From Terriglobia bacterium (lineage in GTDB: Bacteria > Acidobacteriota > Terriglobia > Bryobacterales > Bryobacteraceae): a stretch of 34,271 bases of DNA. The notes below the pieces were generated by a model. The model saw only the letters and a list, made by a program, of their open reading frames with translations, was not told the DNA's origin and made no database searches. Every line of letters begins with the position of its first letter. Within the stretch, counting starts at the first letter, position 1. The stretch covers positions 1 to 34,271 of the forward strand of contig JANYJA010000161.1 of the NCBI GenBank assembly GCA_025358575.1, read 5' to 3'. Below are positions 4,149 through 14,709 of the stretch, one piece after another. Both the position numbers and the translations under genes were made by a program.

Positions 4149-5243
4149 ATGGGAGCGAAACGGGTCCTCATCGTTGACGACGAAGAACAGATCCGAAGCG
4201 TGCTTCTGAAATTCCTTCGGTTTCGTGGATTCGATCCTCAGGCAGTGAATACTGGGGAAGAAGCTTTGCTGGAGCTGAAAGCCGCCCACTTCGAGTTAAT
4301 GCTGGCCGATGTGCGCATGCCGGGGATGGGGGGCATCGCGCTCCTAGAACGGGCGGTTAGAGAGCATCCGGGACTGGGCGTGGTGATGTTGAGCGGTTGC
4401 GATGACGTGAAACTGGCGGTGAAGGCCATGCAATTGGGCGCGCTGGACTACATCGTAAAGCCATTTCACCTGGAGGACGTCGAACAAAAGCTGCAAGAAG
4501 CCGGGCGGCGCTGCAAGGAAGATCGCGATAGAGCCCTCCACGTGAGCGACTTGGAGGCGACGCTCGACCGTAAGTCGATTGAGCTTCAGCAGACACTTGC
4601 CGACCTTCACGACGCCTCGGAAGTGACGCTGGACGCCTTGGTATCGGCTCTTGATGCGCGCGAGCGGGAGACGCAGGCGCATTCGAAGCGGGTGAGCGAG
4701 TATTCGGTTCATTTGGCGTCACGGATGGGCGTAAAGGCAGAGGCGCTGGACGTGATCCGCCGCGGGTCGATGCTGCATGACATTGGAAAGATTGGTATTT
4801 CCGACGCTGTTCTGCTGAAACCCGGCCGGCTTACGGAGGCAGAGTGGGTGGAAATGCGAAGGCATCCACAGATCGGCTATTGGATCGTAAACGGGGTGGA
4901 AGGGCTGCGTCCCGCCGCAGAGATTGTGCTGGCGCATCACGAGCGGTTCGATTATCGGGGGTATCCGTCGCGGATCGGCGGCGAAGAAATCCCGTTGGGC
5001 GCGCGGGTCTTCTCCGTGGTAGACACTCTGGATGCGATCACGTCGGACCGGCCCTACCAGCGCGGCCGGAGTTACGCGGAGGCGCGCACCGAGATTTCGC
5101 GCAACGCCGGTTCGCAGTTCGACCCGGGAGTAGTGAACGCTTTCCTGGATGTGGCTCCGCACGTTTGGGACGACATTCGTTCCCACACCATGTCGAACCG
5201 CTCAAGCGAGACCGCCGGCCGCACTCACCTGGTGTATATATGA
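4149..5243 (+). CDS. Response regulator with HD-GYP domain (RpfG-like cyclic-di-GMP phosphodiesterase)
   Basis: A 364-residue two-domain protein. Residues 1-120 form a CheY-like receiver with acidic DDEE near the N-terminus, phospho-acceptor D54 (LADVRMPG) and K104 (VKPF). A charged, probably coiled-coil linker (about 125-165) leads to an HD-GYP domain with the metal motif H210-D211 (MLHDIGKIG), HH at 263-264 and the signature written DYRGYP at 268-273. HD-GYP proteins hydrolyse cyclic-di-GMP to linear pGpG or GMP. The usual signature is DGxGYP; here Tyr replaces the first Gly, while GYP itself is intact, so activity is likely but not certain. The start has GGGGGA about 8 nt upstream. The stop overlaps the next gene's start (ATGA), so regulator and kinase are translationally coupled and probably a cognate pair. 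Confidence 0.92.
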   Translation: MGAKRVLIVDDEEQIRSVLLKFLRFRGFDPQAVNTGEEALLELKAAHFELMLADVRMPGMGGIALLERAVREHPGLGVVMLSGCDDVKLAVKAMQLGALDYIVKPFHLEDVEQKLQEAGRRCKEDRDRALHVSDLEATLDRKSIELQQTLADLHDASEVTLDALVSALDARERETQAHSKRVSEYSVHLASRMGVKAEALDVIRRGSMLHDIGKIGISDAVLLKPGRLTEAEWVEMRRHPQIGYWIVNGVEGLRPAAEIVLAHHERFDYRGYPSRIGGEEIPLGARVFSVVDTLDAITSDRPYQRGRSYAEARTEISRNAGSQFDPGVVNAFLDVAPHVWDDIRSHTMSNRSSETAGRTHLVYI

Positions 5244-6772
5244 CGGGACCCATTCCAAACGCTTTTGAAGGCCTATTTGAGAACAGCCCGGAGGCGATCT
5301 GGGTGGTGGATCGAAACACGCTGAACTTTCTGGAATGTAATTTTCTCGCGACCGAGAGGTATGGCTTCTCCAGACATGAATTCCTGCGTATGAATCTGGC
5401 CGACCTGCACATGCCGGAAAATATCCGCCGGCTGAACTTGCTGCTAGCCGAGGGTAAATACAGCGGCCCGGAGCTCTCCAACTGGAAGAGCCGGACGCGC
5501 TCGGGCGACTTGCTGGATGTGGATCAATTGATCCGCCCGGTGCATTTCCGGGGCATTGATGCGCTGATCGTAGTGCCTGTCGACGTGCGCGAAAGAAAGG
5601 CCGTGGAAGCACAATTGATGCATGCGCAAAAGATGGAAGCGGTGGGCATGCTGGCGGGGGGTATTGCTCACGATTTTAACAATCTGCTGACCATTATTTC
5701 GGGTTACAGCCAGATGATGCTGGCCGGCATGGCGCAAGCGCATCCGGAACGCAACGGCGTGGAGCAGATATTGAAGGCAAGCGAGAGGGCCGCGGATTTG
5801 ACGCGGCAACTGCTAGCTTTCAGCCGCAGGCAAGTGGCTCAGCCCAAGGTGCTGAATCTCAACGCGATTCTTGACGGAATGAGCACGATGCTGCGGCGGC
5901 TGATCGGCGAGCACATCGACCTGAAGATCGATTCGGGTTTGGATATTGGCAGCGTACGCGCGGATACGGGGCAACTCGACCAGTTGGTGATGAATCTGGT
6001 GGTGAACGCGCGCGACGCCATGTCGCGGGGTGGCATGCTGTTGATCGAAACGCGCAACGTTGAACTGGATGAGAGCTATGCAAGAGAGCATTTGACGGTG
6101 CGCGCAGGGCGCTACGTGATGCTGTCCGTAACCGACACGGGCATCGGCATGGACGAGAAGACCCGGATGCAAGTGTTCGACCCGTTCTTCACCACGAAAG
6201 GCGAGGGACATGGAACGGGTTTAGGGATGTCCACGGTCTACGGGATTATTAAGCAAGGCGGCGGCGCCGTCGACATTTATAGTGAACTGGGGAAGGGCAC
6301 GGTTGTCAAAATTTATTTCCCGCGCGTGGATGAAGCTGCGCAAGCGGAAGACGATCTTGAGGTGAAACCCACCGGCGGTCGCGAGACGATTCTAGTGGTG
6401 GAGGACGAAGAAGCCGTGCGCAAACTGGTGCGCGCCACCTTGGAGAGACATGGCTATCACGTTCTGGTGGCGCCCAGCGGCGCTCAGGCTTTACTTCGAA
6501 CGAAAGAGCATCCGGGGAAAATCGACTTACTGATTACGGATATGGTGATGCCGGAGATGAGCGGACGCGACGTATCGAGGCGAATTCGGCGGCTGCGCAA
6601 AGACATTGCGGTTTTGTATATGTCGGGGTACACTGACCTTTCGTTACAGCACACAGGGAAGCTTTCGCGAGGAATGCAATTTCTGCAAAAGCCATTTACA
6701 CCGACCGTTCTGGTGCGGAAGGTGCGTGAGATGCTGGATGTGCGCGAGGCCAAGAAAGAGAAGTCGGCATAA
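5240..6772 (+). CDS. Soluble PAS-containing hybrid histidine kinase with C-terminal receiver
   Basis: A 510-residue protein starting at ATG 5240, which overlaps the upstream stop by 4 nt. A much longer open frame exists upstream but lies inside the HD-GYP gene. Domains: PAS (about 8-120) with no membrane segment, so a cytoplasmic sensor; HisKA with phosphorylatable H144 in GGIAHDFNNLL; HATPase with N-box NLVVNARDA (about 252-260), DTGIG (299-303) and the FTTK/GTGLG lid region; then a receiver domain with E388-D389-E390 and acceptor D434 (LITDMVMP), K484. The HDFNN H-box is the common hybrid-kinase subtype. Phosphate could pass to its own receiver or to the HD-GYP regulator encoded just before it, linking an intracellular signal (redox, ligand or light; not readable) to cyclic-di-GMP turnover. 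Confidence 0.92.
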   Translation: MTGPIPNAFEGLFENSPEAIWVVDRNTLNFLECNFLATERYGFSRHEFLRMNLADLHMPENIRRLNLLLAEGKYSGPELSNWKSRTRSGDLLDVDQLIRPVHFRGIDALIVVPVDVRERKAVEAQLMHAQKMEAVGMLAGGIAHDFNNLLTIISGYSQMMLAGMAQAHPERNGVEQILKASERAADLTRQLLAFSRRQVAQPKVLNLNAILDGMSTMLRRLIGEHIDLKIDSGLDIGSVRADTGQLDQLVMNLVVNARDAMSRGGMLLIETRNVELDESYAREHLTVRAGRYVMLSVTDTGIGMDEKTRMQVFDPFFTTKGEGHGTGLGMSTVYGIIKQGGGAVDIYSELGKGTVVKIYFPRVDEAAQAEDDLEVKPTGGRETILVVEDEEAVRKLVRATLERHGYHVLVAPSGAQALLRTKEHPGKIDLLITDMVMPEMSGRDVSRRIRRLRKDIAVLYMSGYTDLSLQHTGKLSRGMQFLQKPFTPTVLVRKVREMLDVREAKKEKSA

Positions 6773-6780
6773 GTGGGGGT

Positions 6781-8946
6781 GTGAACGTCGTGAGGGTGGC
6801 GCAACGCGCCTTATTTTTAGTGTTAGGCGTGCAATGCTGTCTCGGTACGACACTGAAGCTTCTGACATCCGACCCGATCAACGTGGACGGCACCGGGAAT
6901 ACGGGTTCCACGCATCTTCGGATTAAGAACACCGATCCGAAGCAGCCATCAACTTGCACGCTTTTTATCAAGGATTTCATAAGTACTAATACAAACGGCA
7001 AAATGGGCGTGACGGCGACCTTTTACGATAAGGACATGCCGACGTCGGCGGGCCGAGCCGTAGGCCCGACGATTGCATTACAAGCTGCCGCGAACGAAGA
7101 ATTCAGCATTAAGGTGGACTTCGCGCACATGGTGGAAGCAGGCGAATCCAAAGGGGATCTGTACTGCGGCGACAGCGACACCCCCATCGGCACGCTCGCG
7201 GCCATTAAGCAACTGGGACTTCCGTTCAAGGTTTCGGTGAATGAGAATCCGCAGGAGAAGCCGGAACTTGCCTTTATCGACGGACAATCACTTAGCGTGC
7301 AGCTAAGGAATGACGACCCGGTCACTTACCCTTTTACTTGGGAGATGCTGATCAAAGGCAAATCAAAGAAGGGGAGCGGCCAGATAGGCCCGAACGGCGT
7401 GGCAACGATCCCGGTTACACCCGACCCGGACTGGTTTTCGCCTTATCAAAGCTTCTTCAAAGACGAACCCGTGGATGGCAAACTAACCCTGCGCTATCAG
7501 CCCAAGGGGGCCCAATCGGAGGATTTCTATCCTGCCAAGCCCATTCCAATCAAGGCGCGATTGAGCTCATTTACGCCGGGACGGCGGGAGGCTCAGTCGA
7601 CGATCGTGATCCTTCTGGTGCTCGCTTTTGGCGGAATACTTTCCTCTTACTTCAACGTCGATTTAGTGAACCGGCTGCGCATGGTTGGGATAAAGAAGCG
7701 GCTCGGCAAATTGGTTAAGGAGACAGGCGAGATTTCCCCTCAATTGACCTCGCAATTGAGGGTGACGCTGCTGCTGGAGCACAAACGCGTTGTGGCGGAC
7801 CTGCCTAAAGGGGTATTTTTCACGCCGGAAACCGCAAGCGTCCTGGCGCAGAGCGCAACCGATACCGACGGACTCGAGATGCGGGTGAACTTAGCGGTAC
7901 AGATTGCCGACGCGGCGGCACGGCTGGGCCGCGGCACGGACACGGGGATGATCGCGCAGTCGCTAGCCGACCGGGTAGACCGTGATCTATCGAGCGCGCA
8001 AGATCTGCTCAGGAAATCCACGCTCTCGGCAGCCGAACAGCAAAAGGTGCAGACCGGAATTGCCGATGCCGTGAATGTTTTGGACGCTTTGGACGCGCCA
8101 GACACCGCGCTGGAAGAGACTTTGGCGGCACGCGTTCGGGATTTGCAGGCCCGATTTACCGACGCCGTAAAGGGAGACCCGATCTACGTTCAAATCAAAA
8201 GTCAGGCGCCGGTTCCGTTCCTGCTGCTCACTCCCGGAAGAAGCGCGGGGTCGCAAGCGGAAAGAGACGCGAGCAGTCTTAAATTGAAAGTGGTGGCCGA
8301 TCTGATCGAAATGCAAGCTAAGCCGAGCACGGAGATGATCGATGCATTGCGCAGGCAAGATCCCCACTCGGTTCGCAGCGCGGAGCTGCTGTTAAGAGAA
8401 TTGAAAGACGAGGTGACGCCAGAGGATCTCCGGAATGCGATTCAAGCGAGCCCTCCACAGTTTTCGATCCTGATCGATCGTGACGTAGTTCGCGTCAACC
8501 GGGCTTCGCTGATGAGGGTGGTATTCAACAATCAGAGATATAACCAAGCTTCCGCGAAGAGCTTGATCGAATGCACTTGGCATTTCGGGCACCTCAATTT
8601 GACCGAGCGGGGCTGGGAGGTGTTTCATTATTTTCCGGCGGTTAGGCCGGAACCTTATCAGGTGGATGTCACATTCAAGGATGAGAAGCAAAAAGACATT
8701 CCACAAGGAATTCCGGTTCAGAGTTTGAGCATTGAAGTTCAGCCTCCTTATTCCGAAGGAAGCCCCCACTGGGCCATCGAAATTCAACGGTGGCTTATCG
8801 GCTTTCTAGTCGCGGTCCTTGGCCTGTTTGCCGGGGCGAAGGATAAGATAACGACGCTCGACACGTTGGGAACCCTGTTTGCGATATTTCTGTTAGGATT
8901 CGCGGTGGATATGGCGAAGAACCTGATATTGCCGAAAACATCGTAG
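6781..8946 (+). CDS. Large membrane protein of unknown function (exported N-domain, three membrane helices)
   Basis: I do not recognise this protein. GTG at 6781 gives 721 residues; GTG at 6790 is better placed relative to the GGGGG at 6775-6779 and keeps the signal sequence. Visible in order: a signal-like hydrophobic segment (8-22); an extracytoplasmic beta-rich region (about 25-265) with cysteine pairs C59/C129 that could form a disulphide; a membrane helix (273-292); a basic segment then a long helical region (about 300-555) with heptad-like Leu/Ala patterns; a beta-rich, Ig-like-looking stretch (about 558-655); and two closing helices (about 670-685 and 694-711). If the signal is cleaved, residues 293-668 face the cytoplasm. 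It follows the kinase gene by 8 bp and is probably co-transcribed. A receptor or membrane-scaffold role is only a guess. Confidence 0.75.
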   Translation: MNVVRVAQRALFLVLGVQCCLGTTLKLLTSDPINVDGTGNTGSTHLRIKNTDPKQPSTCTLFIKDFISTNTNGKMGVTATFYDKDMPTSAGRAVGPTIALQAAANEEFSIKVDFAHMVEAGESKGDLYCGDSDTPIGTLAAIKQLGLPFKVSVNENPQEKPELAFIDGQSLSVQLRNDDPVTYPFTWEMLIKGKSKKGSGQIGPNGVATIPVTPDPDWFSPYQSFFKDEPVDGKLTLRYQPKGAQSEDFYPAKPIPIKARLSSFTPGRREAQSTIVILLVLAFGGILSSYFNVDLVNRLRMVGIKKRLGKLVKETGEISPQLTSQLRVTLLLEHKRVVADLPKGVFFTPETASVLAQSATDTDGLEMRVNLAVQIADAAARLGRGTDTGMIAQSLADRVDRDLSSAQDLLRKSTLSAAEQQKVQTGIADAVNVLDALDAPDTALEETLAARVRDLQARFTDAVKGDPIYVQIKSQAPVPFLLLTPGRSAGSQAERDASSLKLKVVADLIEMQAKPSTEMIDALRRQDPHSVRSAELLLRELKDEVTPEDLRNAIQASPPQFSILIDRDVVRVNRASLMRVVFNNQRYNQASAKSLIECTWHFGHLNLTERGWEVFHYFPAVRPEPYQVDVTFKDEKQKDIPQGIPVQSLSIEVQPPYSEGSPHWAIEIQRWLIGFLVAVLGLFAGAKDKITTLDTLGTLFAIFLLGFAVDMAKNLILPKTS

Positions 8947-10739: not shown

Positions 10740-11978
10740 TTACTGAATGGCGACGGTCACCGCATTCGAAGCCACGCCGCTGATGGTGACTACTACCGGA
10801 ACGGCGTCGCCCACAGGCGCGGCATCTGGAATTTTGGCATTTACCTGATAAAGCCCAACTGTGCCTGGCGTCAATCCGGCAAAGTTGACTACGGCGGGCA
10901 CCCCTCCAATGGTCACTGACGCAGGCAGCAGGGTCTCGGCTGGGGGATCGCTCGGAGCCGGCGCGCCGCTTGCCTGGGAACTTTTAAGGGGTCCCAGACC
11001 GGTGCCATAGATTTCCAAAAAGTCGCCGTGCCGCGCGGGATGGGCGCCGGGAATCGGGCCAGCGGGTGCGGCCACCGTCGCGGTCCCGGAAATTAAGATC
11101 GCCCCTTGGCCGGAGCCCTGCTGATTGGTCGCGAACAGCGTTGGTGCATAAGGCGTGAGGGTGACGGTTACCGGCTCACTCGAGAGCGTTCCGAGGGTGT
11201 GCGTCAATACGACGTGCGTGCTTCCCGCCAGCGCCCAGGGAACCTGGATATTCACCTGCCCGCGCGAAACGAAATATAGCGGCGCGAGCGACCCTCCCAT
11301 TTGCATGATGGCGCCCCCTAGCGTAGAAGGCAGTGCGCCCGCGCTGGCGCTAGCCACCACCGGAGCTAGATTCGTCCCATATACCGAGACGATGCTGCCT
11401 GGTGCCACCGCCGCATCCACAGGATAAGCCGCGCTCACAATGCCCGTCGGCGCCACGACAGGTGCCGGTCCAATGGTGAGGTTCGCGGCGTTTGAAAGGC
11501 CGCCCGCCAGCACAATCGCGCCGGTGGCGAGCGAGGCTTGCGTGTCGGTAAGAGGGGTCCAGGAAGCGCCCCCGTCGATGGTCTTCCATACACCACCTTC
11601 CGCCGCTCCTGCGTAGACCACGTCGGAATTGCGTGGATCCACGGCCACGGCTGTGATCCGCCCACTGAACGGATTTGAGCCTGTTCCAATCGGTTGCGGA
11701 CCAATGAGAGTCCATTGATCCGTCGCGGCGGAGACACCTCTTCGCGGGCTTTTCCCGGAATTTTGGGGGGCCTCATTGAGAAGCATGCGATCCAAGGCGC
11801 GCAAAGCCCGCACACGCGCTCCGCCAGGAATGCGAGTTCCTAGATAGGCGCGCTCTTTATGAAAAGCATCTTCCCTGGCGTAAGGATTGTCGCCTTCGTC
11901 CAAATCGGTCTGAGCGAGGCCGGTTGAGATACAGAGCATACCCAGGAGAGCAGGCAGGACGAGCCGGAGGAAACACAT
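10740..11978 (-). CDS. Secreted BNR-like / TIGR03437 domain protein
   Basis: A 412-residue exported protein. Residues 1-22 are a signal peptide (cleavage near GLAQ). Residues about 88-150 look like a single BNR/sortilin-type blade pair: WTLIGPQP, then DVVYAGAAEGGVWKTIDGGASW. From about 160 to the end it is the domain known as TIGR03437, with VAPGSIVSVYGTNLAP, GQVNIQVPW and a repeated subdomain ending VASNAVTVAI. BNR-type relatives carry many blades, whereas here one blade runs straight into the C-terminal domain, so the gene looks like a contracted or fused version. The start ATG 11978 has no good ribosome site. It is divergent from arsA with 54 bp between. Likely extracellular or cell-surface; ligand unknown. 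The C-terminal domain is strongly associated with Solibacter-type acidobacteria. Confidence 0.85.
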   Translation of the reverse strand: MCFLRLVLPALLGMLCISTGLAQTDLDEGDNPYAREDAFHKERAYLGTRIPGGARVRALRALDRMLLNEAPQNSGKSPRRGVSAATDQWTLIGPQPIGTGSNPFSGRITAVAVDPRNSDVVYAGAAEGGVWKTIDGGASWTPLTDTQASLATGAIVLAGGLSNAANLTIGPAPVVAPTGIVSAAYPVDAAVAPGSIVSVYGTNLAPVVASASAGALPSTLGGAIMQMGGSLAPLYFVSRGQVNIQVPWALAGSTHVVLTHTLGTLSSEPVTVTLTPYAPTLFATNQQGSGQGAILISGTATVAAPAGPIPGAHPARHGDFLEIYGTGLGPLKSSQASGAPAPSDPPAETLLPASVTIGGVPAVVNFAGLTPGTVGLYQVNAKIPDAAPVGDAVPVVVTISGVASNAVTVAIQ

Positions 11979-12021
11979 AGGGGAAACCGAACGCAGAGGT
12001 TAGTGTAGCGCGACCGCACGT

Positions 12022-12027
12022 TAGAAT
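12022..12027 (+). promoter_or_regulatory. Candidate -10 box (TAGAAT) 5 nt before arsA
   Basis: TAGAAT matches the -10 consensus at 5 of 6 positions and is followed by GGTTC and the ATG at 12033. No Shine-Dalgarno fits in this space, so the transcript may start at the start codon. No clear -35 box. Confidence 0.4.
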
Positions 12028-12032
12028 GGTTC

Positions 12033-13229
12033 ATGCGAATCCTTCTATTCAGCGGCAAGGGTGGTGTTGGCAAAACCAGCCTGGCGGCGGCAACGGGTTT
12101 GCAACTTTCCAAGCTGGGCTACAAGACGCTGGTGATGTCGGTCGACCCAGCCCACAGCCTCGCCGATTCGTTCGATCTTGAAACCAGTCTATTCAACGCC
12201 TCTACCGGGGACCCTTACCGCATTCACGACAATCTCTTCATCCACGAAGTGAATATTCAGCGCGAGATCAAACGCTACTGGAGCGAGATCTCGACGTATA
12301 TAATCTCCGTTCTGCGCACCACCGGCATCGGGGACGTTGAATCGGAAGAACTCGCCATTCTGCCGGGCATGGAAGAGCTCAGCGCCATGATGTACGTGAA
12401 TCAGTACCGTCGCGAGAAGTCGTACGACGTTATTGTTCTGGATTGCGCGCCAACAGCGGAATCGCTGCGCTTTGTCAGCATGCCGACCACGCTTGAGTGG
12501 TACATGAAACACATTTTCCCGTGGCAGCGCGGGTTGCTTAAAGCGGTGCGCCCGCTTGCCAATCGCGTGTCGCCGGTCCAATTGCCGAAGGACACTTACT
12601 TCGCCAATATTCAGAGCTTGTTCGAACGCGTGGAAGGCATCGGCGAGATTTTGCAGGACCCCATGACCACGAGTGTGCGGCTGGTGACAAACCCGGAAAA
12701 GATGGTGCTACGCGAAACGCAGCGAGCCTTCGTTTATTTCTCGCTGCATGGTTTGACCGTGGATGGAATTCTTGTGAATCGCGTTCTTCCGGCGGAAGTA
12801 ACGGACGTTTACTTTCAGGGGTGGCGGGCCTCGCAAGCCAGGATTATCGAGGAGATTGAAACTTACTTCGCGCCCGTGGCGGTGAAGCAGGTTCCGCTTT
12901 TCACACAAGAAGTGCTGGGCGTGGAACGGCTGGAGGCTTTGGCGGGCGTGCTTTACCAGGACCGGGAGGACCCGTCACTTGTCACCCGCACCGAAACGCC
13001 GTATAGTTTCGAAAAGGTCAACTCGCACTACGAAGTGCATTTGCGGCTGCCATTCGCGGTGAAGGGAGAAGTCGGTTTGTTCAAGAAGGGCGATGAATTA
13101 GTGGTGCAAATCGGGACACTGCGGCGTCACATTGGATTACCCACTTCGATGTCGAGTTTGTCGCCCACTAAGGCAACGCTGGCGAATCAGTTGTTAGTTG
13201 TTGAAATGAAGGAGAGCACAAATGGATGA
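12033..13229 (+). CDS. ArsA/Get3-family ATPase with C-terminal HSP20-like domain
   Basis: A 398-residue cytoplasmic ATPase. The deviant Walker A GKGGVGKT is at residues 8-15, switch I DPAHSL at 38-43 and switch II DCAPTAE starting at D137, all diagnostic of the ArsA/Get3 branch of SIMIBI NTPases. Residues about 325-390 form the small beta-sandwich known as the ArsA HSP20-like domain, found in bacterial single-copy members. The paired Cys of Get3's zinc site and the three-cysteine metalloid site of arsenical pumps are not evident, and no arsB, arsR or arsC gene is nearby. Arsenite extrusion is therefore unlikely; a chaperone or membrane-targeting role is more plausible but unproven. The gene overlaps the following 75-codon gene by 8 nt, so the two products are probably made together. 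Confidence 0.9.
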   Translation: MRILLFSGKGGVGKTSLAAATGLQLSKLGYKTLVMSVDPAHSLADSFDLETSLFNASTGDPYRIHDNLFIHEVNIQREIKRYWSEISTYIISVLRTTGIGDVESEELAILPGMEELSAMMYVNQYRREKSYDVIVLDCAPTAESLRFVSMPTTLEWYMKHIFPWQRGLLKAVRPLANRVSPVQLPKDTYFANIQSLFERVEGIGEILQDPMTTSVRLVTNPEKMVLRETQRAFVYFSLHGLTVDGILVNRVLPAEVTDVYFQGWRASQARIIEEIETYFAPVAVKQVPLFTQEVLGVERLEALAGVLYQDREDPSLVTRTETPYSFEKVNSHYEVHLRLPFAVKGEVGLFKKGDELVVQIGTLRRHIGLPTSMSSLSPTKATLANQLLVVEMKESTNG

Positions 13230-13449
13230 GAAGACGAACCAACCTCACGAGCAAGGCGGATGCTTCTGTATGGGCGTCGGTCCGCAGGTGACTTCAATGG
13301 CCGACAATCTTTGGTCGCGAGCTACCAATGACCATTTTCGCAACTCGCGGGTGGAATTTCTGAAGGGTCTGCGCAGTTTGCTGGACGATCGGATTGATAA
13401 AATGTCCCGGAGTGGACCGGCTAAGGGCACGCAAGTGCCGGTGGAATAA
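13222..13449 (+). CDS. 75-residue ArsA-linked protein of unknown function
   Basis: A small protein with a strong ribosome site (GAAGGAG) before ATG 13222, placed inside the end of the ArsA gene with 8 nt overlap, so it is very likely real and coupled. The N-terminus carries GGCFCMG (Cys14, Cys16). The rest is a single predicted amphipathic helix region (about 35-65) rich in Arg, Leu and Asp, with a pattern like FRNSRVEFLKGLRSLLDDRI. No signal or membrane segment. The Cys-x-Cys could bind metal or be redox-active. Coupling suggests a client, adaptor or cofactor of the ATPase. I do not know the family by name. Confidence 0.8.
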   Translation: MDEKTNQPHEQGGCFCMGVGPQVTSMADNLWSRATNDHFRNSRVEFLKGLRSLLDDRIDKMSRSGPAKGTQVPVE

Positions 13450-13563
13450 AATTTGGAGGCAAGCCAAGCGCGCCAAGCACGTTGCATACACGCCGGGGTC
13501 GGTGGCAGCGCCGGTCCTAATTCAAGAACGCAGCAGGTAACTTCTCGGAAGGACTGGGAGCGA

Positions 13564-14709
13564 ATGACAAATCTACTGAGTGGGGAAGAGCAAAAACAAA
13601 TTTTGAACCGCGGGTTTTCCCGCCGATCGCTGGGCAAATTCGCCAGCATTTTGACGGCTGGCGCCGCGCTGCCGTTCTATAACGAGTCGGCGATGGCGCA
13701 GCTTTCCATGGTGAAGGATATTCCCGCAGACGCAGTGAAAATCAACGCCAACGAGAACCCTTTGGGGCCGTGTCCCGAGGCCGCCGACGCCATCCATAGC
13801 ATTGTGCAGAAGGGCGGTCGCTACCTGTACGACGAGACCTTCAACTTTGCGGGTACGCTGGCTGGAATTGAAGGCGTGAAGCCGAATTACGTGATTCCGT
13901 ACGCCGGTTCAAGCGACCCGCTGCACCGCGCGGTGCTGGCTTACACTTCGCCGACAAAGAGCTTCGTGGTTGCCGATCCCGGTTATGAAGCTGGCGGTCG
14001 CGCGGCCGAATATGTCGGGGCCAAAGTAGTCAAGGTTCCGCTTACAAAATCATTCGCTCATGACGTCAGGGCAATGGCTGAGGCGGACCCAAACGCGGGC
14101 GTGATCTACGTCTGCAATCCCAATAACCCGACAGGCACGCTGACTTCGCGCGCGGATATCGAGTGGATTCTAGCTAACAAGCCGAAAGGCTCGGTCCTGC
14201 TTCTGGACGAAGCCTATCTGCACTTCTCCGATGCGACGCCTTGCAGCGATATGGTGGCCGCCGATAAGGAACTCATTATTCTGCGCACGTTCTCGAAGCT
14301 TTTTGGCATGGCCGGGCTTCGCGCCGGAGCTGCAATTGGCCGTCCCGATCTGCTCGCCAAAATGCAGATGTACTCGGCGGGAGCACTGCCCGTCACTGGA
14401 ATGGTGGGCGCGAAAGTGAGCTTGCAGCAGAAGAGCCTGGTCGCCAGCCGCAAAAAAGCCATGCGCGCTATTCGAGCCGACACGTTCGACTTTTTGGCCA
14501 AAAACAATATTGAATTTATCCCCTCGGACAGCAATTGCTTCATGCTGAATGCCAAGCGTTCAGCGCACGAGTTCATCGGTGCCATGGCTAAGGAGAAGGT
14601 GTATGTCGGACGGTCCTGGCCTTCGATGCCCACTTACAGCCGGATCACGGTCGGAACGGCCGACGAGATGGCCAAGTTCCAGGCCGCCGCAAAAAAAGTG
14701 CTGGCATAA
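13564..14709 (+). CDS. Tat-exported class I/II aminotransferase (histidinol-phosphate aminotransferase homologue)
   Basis: A 381-residue PLP fold-type I enzyme related to HisC. Visible: ANENPLGP (62-69) at the substrate site, NPNNPTG (185-191), DEAY (215-218, Asp contacts the PLP pyridine nitrogen) and PLP lysine K245 in TFSKLFGMAGLRAG. In front is a twin-arginine signal (SRRSLGKFA at 19-27, then a hydrophobic stretch to AMAQ near 45), which cytoplasmic HisC lacks. Export after cofactor loading is what Tat does, so an active periplasmic aminotransferase is plausible. Substrate unknown. The start ATG 13564 has GGGAG upstream. No other his genes are nearby. It ends before a hairpin terminator. 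Confidence 0.88.
   Translation: MTNLLSGEEQKQILNRGFSRRSLGKFASILTAGAALPFYNESAMAQLSMVKDIPADAVKINANENPLGPCPEAADAIHSIVQKGGRYLYDETFNFAGTLAGIEGVKPNYVIPYAGSSDPLHRAVLAYTSPTKSFVVADPGYEAGGRAAEYVGAKVVKVPLTKSFAHDVRAMAEADPNAGVIYVCNPNNPTGTLTSRADIEWILANKPKGSVLLLDEAYLHFSDATPCSDMVAADKELIILRTFSKLFGMAGLRAGAAIGRPDLLAKMQMYSAGALPVTGMVGAKVSLQQKSLVASRKKAMRAIRADTFDFLAKNNIEFIPSDSNCFMLNAKRSAHEFIGAMAKEKVYVGRSWPSMPTYSRITVGTADEMAKFQAAAKKVLA

Follow-up and report, generated by a model that had tools for sequence, protein, structure and literature searches.

A small protein with a tail of the small heat-shock protein type is linked to Get3d-like ATPases bearing an alpha-crystallin domain and is probably their missing partner

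The described proteins closest to the ATPase analyzed here are Get3d (AtGet3d, 8elf; NosGet3d, 3igf and 8egk), which have an ATPase domain followed by an alpha-crystallin domain (alphaCD) and no CXXC motif. According to the parts of PMC10248533 available to us, Get3d is conserved in land plants and photosynthetic bacteria, its alphaCD packs on the ATPase dimer and occupies the site on Get3 to which Get4 binds in yeast, it would need new partners, and the role of the alphaCD is unclear; no small partner is named for Get3d in those parts. Small heat-shock proteins combine an alpha-crystallin domain with a C-terminal [IV]-x-[IV] tail, and the available part of PMC4823740 describes that this C-terminal IXI motif binds the beta4-beta8 groove of a neighbouring alpha-crystallin domain. 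Judged from titles and the beginnings of abstracts, the open-licence literature yielded no other paper on alphaCD-Get3 ATPases with a partner, and in the accessible portion of PMC12040988 Get3d is cited solely in the reference list.

We analyzed a stretch of 34,271 nucleotides (the window) from a Terriglobia bacterium of the phylum Acidobacteriota (GCA_025358575.1, contig JANYJA010000161.1). The gene at 12033–13229 on the forward strand encodes a Get3/ArsA-fold ATPase of 398 residues, which is a single half and has no tandem halves. Its ATPase domain (residues 1–309, 12033–12959) carries the P-loop GKGGVGKT and the DPAHSL and DCAPT motifs and matches ArsA_ATPase (PF02374, E = 1.6e-92, 310.4 bits). 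The HSP20-like tail that the first-pass annotation had described is an alphaCD (residues 330–392, 13020–13208) matching ArsA_HSP20 (PF17886, E = 1.6e-16, 60 bits, cut-off 22.5). The two-domain architecture is common to the window ATPase and Get3d, and NosGet3d (8egk) superposed on residues 1–388 of a model of a related protein (L098, described below) with Z 32.4 over 338 residues at 25% identity. On the NosAFP/Get3d model NF050088 the window ATPase scored 137.8 bits against a cut-off of 325, and the cyanobacterial ATPase of L103 likewise stayed under this cut-off with 200.4 bits.

The ArsA arsenite pump has the fold and the P-loop motifs in common with the window ATPase, but the latter differs in being a single half, in its alphaCD and in having one cysteine, Cys138, which lies inside the DCAPT motif, with no CXXC zinc motif. 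It scored 86.4 bits on the arsenical pump model TIGR04291 (cut-off 650) and 241.9 bits on TIGR00345, the TRC40/GET3/ArsA subfamily, above the cut-off of 135. Six of the ten neighbouring ORFs scanned matched Pfam (NUDIX hydrolase, aminotransferase, sulfate permease, BON protein, ThiC and M24 peptidase), and no arsenic gene was found among the ten; the remaining window was covered as ORF translations read by eye. The arsenic-pump reading was rejected because of the one cysteine, the low TIGR04291 score and the lack of ars genes in the ten scanned neighbours. The window ATPase is Get3d-like and of the bacterial targeting type (Get3) rather than an arsenite pump, in agreement with the first-pass annotation, which had noted that metalloid-site cysteines were not evident and that no arsenic genes were nearby. 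In the window genome the ATPase was matched once, and the small protein described below had a single good match (next best E 0.55). Elsewhere in the window, a 412-residue ORF on the reverse strand (10740–11978) begins, by eye, like a secreted protein and matched no Pfam family at E 1e-4. A promoter and terminator scan of 11700–13800 gave a single match of each kind, neither beyond what chance would give.

The last 8 bases of the ATPase ORF, stop codon included, are also the first 8 bases of a small ORF on the same strand (13222–13449, 75 residues). An AAGGAG ribosome site (13209–13214) precedes its ATG by 7 bases and lies within the ATPase codons for K-E, so both the overlap and the strong ribosome site that had been reported were found. 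The VEMKE end of the ATPase (13200–13214), which is common among relatives, is spelled by the ribosome-site bases of the next gene, and its conservation in the protein may therefore partly be at the RNA level. In 23 aligned rows (22 of the window's family and L027 of the next family), GGAG, AGGA or GAGG occurred within 18 bases upstream of the small gene in every row. Counted from where the ATPase stop codon ends, the small gene started at −4 in 12 rows, at −8 in the window, at −1 in one, at +1 or +2 in six, and at +13 and +30 in one each, the last row being an artefact of a broken ATPase frame. Since homologues as distant as 30% identity occupy the corresponding position in relatives and ribosome-type sites were present in all 23 rows, the small ORF is not a chance frame.

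The small protein family had no named match in the libraries that were scanned: the window protein had no Pfam or NCBIfam family above the cut-off, its 23 relatives had no Pfam family at E 0.01, and the small counterparts of the named loci gave no family match (10 scanned in Pfam, 5 in NCBIfam). Its profile also had no match up to E 1 among PDB sequences, yeast Get4 included. In two genomes the small gene or part of it is repeated. The small protein at L027:2624–2890 (G037) contains two tandem copies of its Cys motif segment, APMCYCAGVGPRLS, and G432 has two near-identical small-gene copies 5.7 kb apart (C151:2036–2245 and 7768–7977; L091, L069), alongside a single ATPase match with an E of at most 1e-20.

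The co-occurrence of the two families, which had been proposed as a check, was analyzed first among relatives and then across the phylum. In 61 related genomes, with a close ATPase defined by a best E below 1e-90 and the small protein by E up to 0.01, the ATPase was present in 29, the small protein in 29 and both in 28; the small gene was thus found in 28/29 genomes with a close ATPase compared with 1/32 of the others. G057 had the ATPase only, and G058 had only weak small-protein matches without the tail. The first-pass annotation had also raised the case of a small gene missing beside most orthologous ATPases; in the 25 ATPase genomes of the window's family the small gene lay directly behind the ATPase gene in 23, and the remaining two had it no more than 1.3 kb away, so that this case did not arise. 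In these two, an OsmC-like gene (G018, small gene about 0.5 kb further on) or a NagA-like gene (G004, 1.2 kb further on) stands between, both names coming from reading of the translations.

In 396 Acidobacteriota genomes, 40 of which had an ATPase relative (E below 1e-70), a 23-row profile of the small protein matched in 24 genomes, namely 23/40 with the ATPase relative compared with 1/356 of the others. The Fisher p value of 2e-25 serves as a guide only because the genomes are related, and both groups may hold misses because the searches scored at most 4 (ATPase) and 14 (small protein) first-look candidates per genome. The 40 leave out 29 genomes with an ATPase E between 1e-70 and 1e-20, mostly classical ArsA; in two of the genomes left out, G173 and G333, partial ATPase matches reach the alphaCD region, and these may be alphaCD-ATPases without a match to the small-protein profile. 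The small gene was near the ATPase in 21 of the 23 profile-matched genomes and on another contig in G382 and G390, where it bears the tail. Position added further small ORFs (G066, G115, G126, G158, G236, G280, G400, G408, G443 and G065), and by profile and position together, 31/40 genomes had a small ORF no more than 0.4 kb from the ATPase and in the same orientation. The C-terminal tail described below stood at the end in 27 of these 31 and 14 residues inside in G063; the ORF of G270 was cut by the contig end, and the adjacent homologues of G065 and G315 had no tail. In G346 the tail is seemingly in cis, the ATPase ending in MTRIEVQE about 35 residues past the last domain strand. No small partner was found in 6/40 genomes (G156, G183, G225, G326, G405 and G435; G225 by profile only). 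The gene order was reversed in G080, G155 and G315, with the small gene upstream of the ATPase gene and, in G080 and G315, overlapping its start. Because a number of the records are metagenome bins, binning or assembly errors may lie behind the cis case of G346 and individual taxon names.

Such an association could arise if two unrelated functions merely shared an operon, the linkage being transcriptional only. In its favour, the gene after the pair differs between relatives, so the surroundings reshuffle; against this, the linkage is seen in several phyla, in reversed order and with another gene inserted (L013, L019), and it extends to unlinked loci (G382, G390) and to an apparent cis tail. 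We therefore give this explanation very little weight. The ATPase and the small protein are very probably functionally linked, and the small gene is tied to the ATPase more generally than the first-pass annotation had supposed.

Beyond the phylum, the alphaCD was called with a profile made from the ATPase alignment, which divided the 80 ATPase loci listed into 42 with and 38 without the domain, the latter including L125, where the contig ends within the ATPase. A 48-row small-protein profile matched (E below 1e-3) at 11/42 alphaCD loci compared with 0/38 others among the matches listed. The 11 loci belong to Terriglobia (the window's phylum), two Deltaproteobacteria, Desulfobacteraceae, three Chloroflexi, Archaeoglobaceae, Scalindua, Dormibacterota and Anaerolineae, and in Anaerolineae the small ORF, 33 bases behind the ATPase, runs in the opposite direction. 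Position and tail added L095, L097, L100, L102, L115, L119–L121, L132, L133 and L137, giving a small ORF beside 22/42 alphaCD-ATPases among the matches listed, 11 of these small ORFs being candidate homologues of the window's small protein by position and tail, with a profile E above 1e-3 or no profile match. The tail motif is not at the very end in L119, L120 and L133, and the small ORF of L119 starts about 240 bases behind the ATPase. In the actinobacterial loci L097, L132 and L133 (locus 5193–6635), the small ORF lies between the ATPase gene and a kinase gene, which we take to encode a ROK-type sugar kinase; CxxC-like motifs occur in the small ORFs of L132 and L133. DUF5304 was considered as the actinobacterial counterpart and rejected, as six actinobacterial small ORFs scanned had no such Pfam match.

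No such small ORF was seen behind 20/42 alphaCD-ATPases among the matches listed (five cyanobacteria, four Chlorobiaceae, two Chloroflexus, three Bacteroidetes, two Clostridia, L104, L116, L129 and L139), which indicates that the ATPase does not always need the small protein. The ORF after the ATPase carried the strict tail pattern at 16/42 alphaCD loci compared with 0/34 others, and in a loose pattern at 18/42 compared with 1/34, again among the matches listed; the patterns were chosen after the tails had been seen, the ORFs examined numbered 33 behind alphaCD-ATPases and 15 behind others, and the 34 are the 38 loci minus four without a stop inside the locus. In a quick tree of the listed loci, with 31/83 inner branches open, the small-partner label was clustered (11 changes compared with 23 in shuffles), and the ATPase was tentatively grouped with the cyanobacterial members in a 40-row branch with an SH-aLRT of 95. 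The tree left out L104, L125 and two outgroup rows, its labels were set by hand, and L127, with the opposite-strand ORF, was labelled as having none.

The features of the small protein were scored in 47 Acidobacteriota homologues, which are the 48 small proteins less L039, whose sequence runs off the contig. The GGCFCMG motif pointed out in the first-pass annotation is present at residues 12–18 and includes the C-x-C at residues 14–16 (13261–13269); it did not stand as a defining feature, since CxC or CxxC within the last 85 residues occurred in 28/47 homologues and was missing in 19/47. The Cys motif is thus optional for the family. These 28 homologues, together with CxxC-type motifs in actinobacterial counterparts, could suggest a metal or redox sensor or chaperone in which the CxC would sense a metal for the ATPase or hand it over, as ArsD does with ArsA. 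The 19 homologues without the motif, the single ATPase cysteine within DCAPT, the lack of a Pfam family at E 0.01 in 23 members and the lack of arsenic genes in the ten scanned neighbours all argue against this role, which we consider distinctly improbable. An ArsD-like metallochaperone identity was rejected, with no Pfam match in the 23 small-protein members.

The alignment instead points to two other parts of the protein. The helix core (residues 37–62, 13330–13407) contains the conserved H38, E45, L47, R51, D55 and I58, and the C-terminal tail KGTQVPVE (13423–13446) contains V72-x-V74 as an IXI/V-type motif, which the first-pass annotation had overlooked. Positions 72 and 74 were I, L, V or M in 89% and 98%, with an acidic end in 85%. 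The strict tail [IV].[IVL] near the C-terminal end was found in 42/47 homologues, compared with a mean of 3.9 and a maximum of 13 when the last 20 residues were shuffled in 2000 trials; the count of 42/47 is biased because the gathering profile includes the tail, and among rows found by position only, where tails were already being looked for, it was 6/7. The helix had been described as amphipathic, a claim that did not hold up: the hydrophobic moment was no higher than in shuffles, for the single sequence and for the family column averages alike. Judged from their sequences, the small proteins appear to have in common a helix core and, at the C-terminus, an [IV]-x-[IVL] tail that resembles the IXI tails of small heat-shock proteins.

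The alpha-crystallin domain and the tail of a small heat-shock protein are in one chain, whereas in the pair the Get3 ATPase carries the domain, as a fusion, and the second protein carries the tail (V72-P-V74). The small heat-shock protein encoded in the window genome itself has the C-terminus PRQVKVQVQQT, in which PRQVKV aligns with PRRIQV of 5j7n. In the aligned ATPases no more than about 16 residues follow the last domain strand. We infer docking in trans because these ATPases are mostly without a tail of their own while the small partner has one. Docking of the tail on the alphaCD of the ATPase seems to us slightly favoured; the packing of the Get3d alphaCD on the ATPase dimer, as given in the available parts of PMC10248533, speaks against it in so far as the docking groove may not be free.

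AlphaFold was run on read-through tandems (ATPase plus small protein) of the relative L098 and the archaeal L115; three alignment rows underlie the small part in each model, and separate small proteins were left out because they misaligned. The L098 tandem had a mean pLDDT of 79.8 and a pTM of 0.74, with seven strands in the alphaCD, and the tail residues 474–477 were modelled as a strand at a pLDDT of about 52. The L115 tandem had a mean pLDDT of 83.0 and a pTM of 0.78, and its tail was unstructured at a pLDDT of about 41. The helix of the small part was predicted at low confidence in these models, with a pLDDT of about 55–65. The two tandem models disagree on the tail and, as predictions, neither show nor exclude docking.

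Small genes beside alphaCD-ATPases also include those of the chlorosome envelope proteins CsmA and CsmC, which belong to named Pfam families, neither of which the small partner matched. In a Chlorobiaceae locus (L117:112–5152), CsmC and Bac_chlorC (the CsmA family) lie between two alphaCD-ATPases. At L122:4001–5524, L182:897–2493 and L177, Bac_chlorC lies behind the alphaCD-ATPase in Chloroflexus, and Bac_chlorC and a UbiA-type prenyltransferase lie around one in acidobacterial genomes. As a sign of a phototrophic host, Bac_chlorC was looked for in the window genome and not found, though the control search gave no match anywhere. The accessible passages of one paper on ArsA and chlorosomes contain no mention of a link between alphaCD-ATPases and chlorosome genes.

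The first-pass annotation had left the small protein as a client or an adaptor. As the main client, it would be a helical protein that is chaperoned or delivered to the membrane by the ATPase, with no adaptor role, and the small chlorosome proteins adjoining the same ATPase family in green phototrophs (Bac_chlorC and CsmC in L117, Bac_chlorC in L122 and L182) would be comparable as possible clients. The small protein has no membrane-spanning stretch by eye, its hydrophilic tail is among its most conserved parts and is seemingly fused to one ATPase, and it was not found with all alphaCD-ATPases; we consider a client role unlikely. The tie of the small gene to the ATPase stood, and of the two roles an adaptor or subunit is favoured over a client by the conserved tail, the reversed gene order (G080, G155 and G315) and the apparent cis tail of G346.

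In summary, the small protein is probably the missing partner of the ATPase, and the reading we prefer, and regard as reasonably likely, is a two-part machine of a Get3d-like ATPase and a dedicated small adaptor whose tail would dock on the alphaCD. The C-terminal V/I-x-V/I tail of the adaptor would add a strand to the alphaCD at the beta4/beta8 groove, so that the tail carried in cis by small heat-shock proteins would here be supplied in trans. The docked helix would then sit near the client chamber of the ATPase as a regulator, a lid or a receptor for clients or the membrane, and may be moved by the ATP cycle, while coupled translation would keep the ATPase and the small protein in step.

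A widespread, gene-linked small protein with a tail suited to the alphaCD bears on the partners of Get3d and on the role of the alphaCD, both of which are raised in the available parts of PMC10248533. Among the matches listed, alphaCD-ATPases were present in archaea and in bacteria not known as phototrophs, which contrasts with the land plants and photosynthetic bacteria named in the abstract of that paper. We tentatively suggest, at somewhat less than even chances, that ATPases combining Get3 and alphaCD were in origin a two-component chaperone or targeting machine of bacteria and archaea, in which the ATPase is worked by an adaptor whose small heat-shock protein-like tail clips in trans onto the alphaCD. 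The single-gene Get3d found in cyanobacteria and plants, which has until now been linked to photosynthesis, would then be derived, the adaptor having been lost. To our knowledge, there is no accepted Get pathway in bacteria, and a co-conserved adaptor would give a concrete handle on bacterial Get-type targeting.
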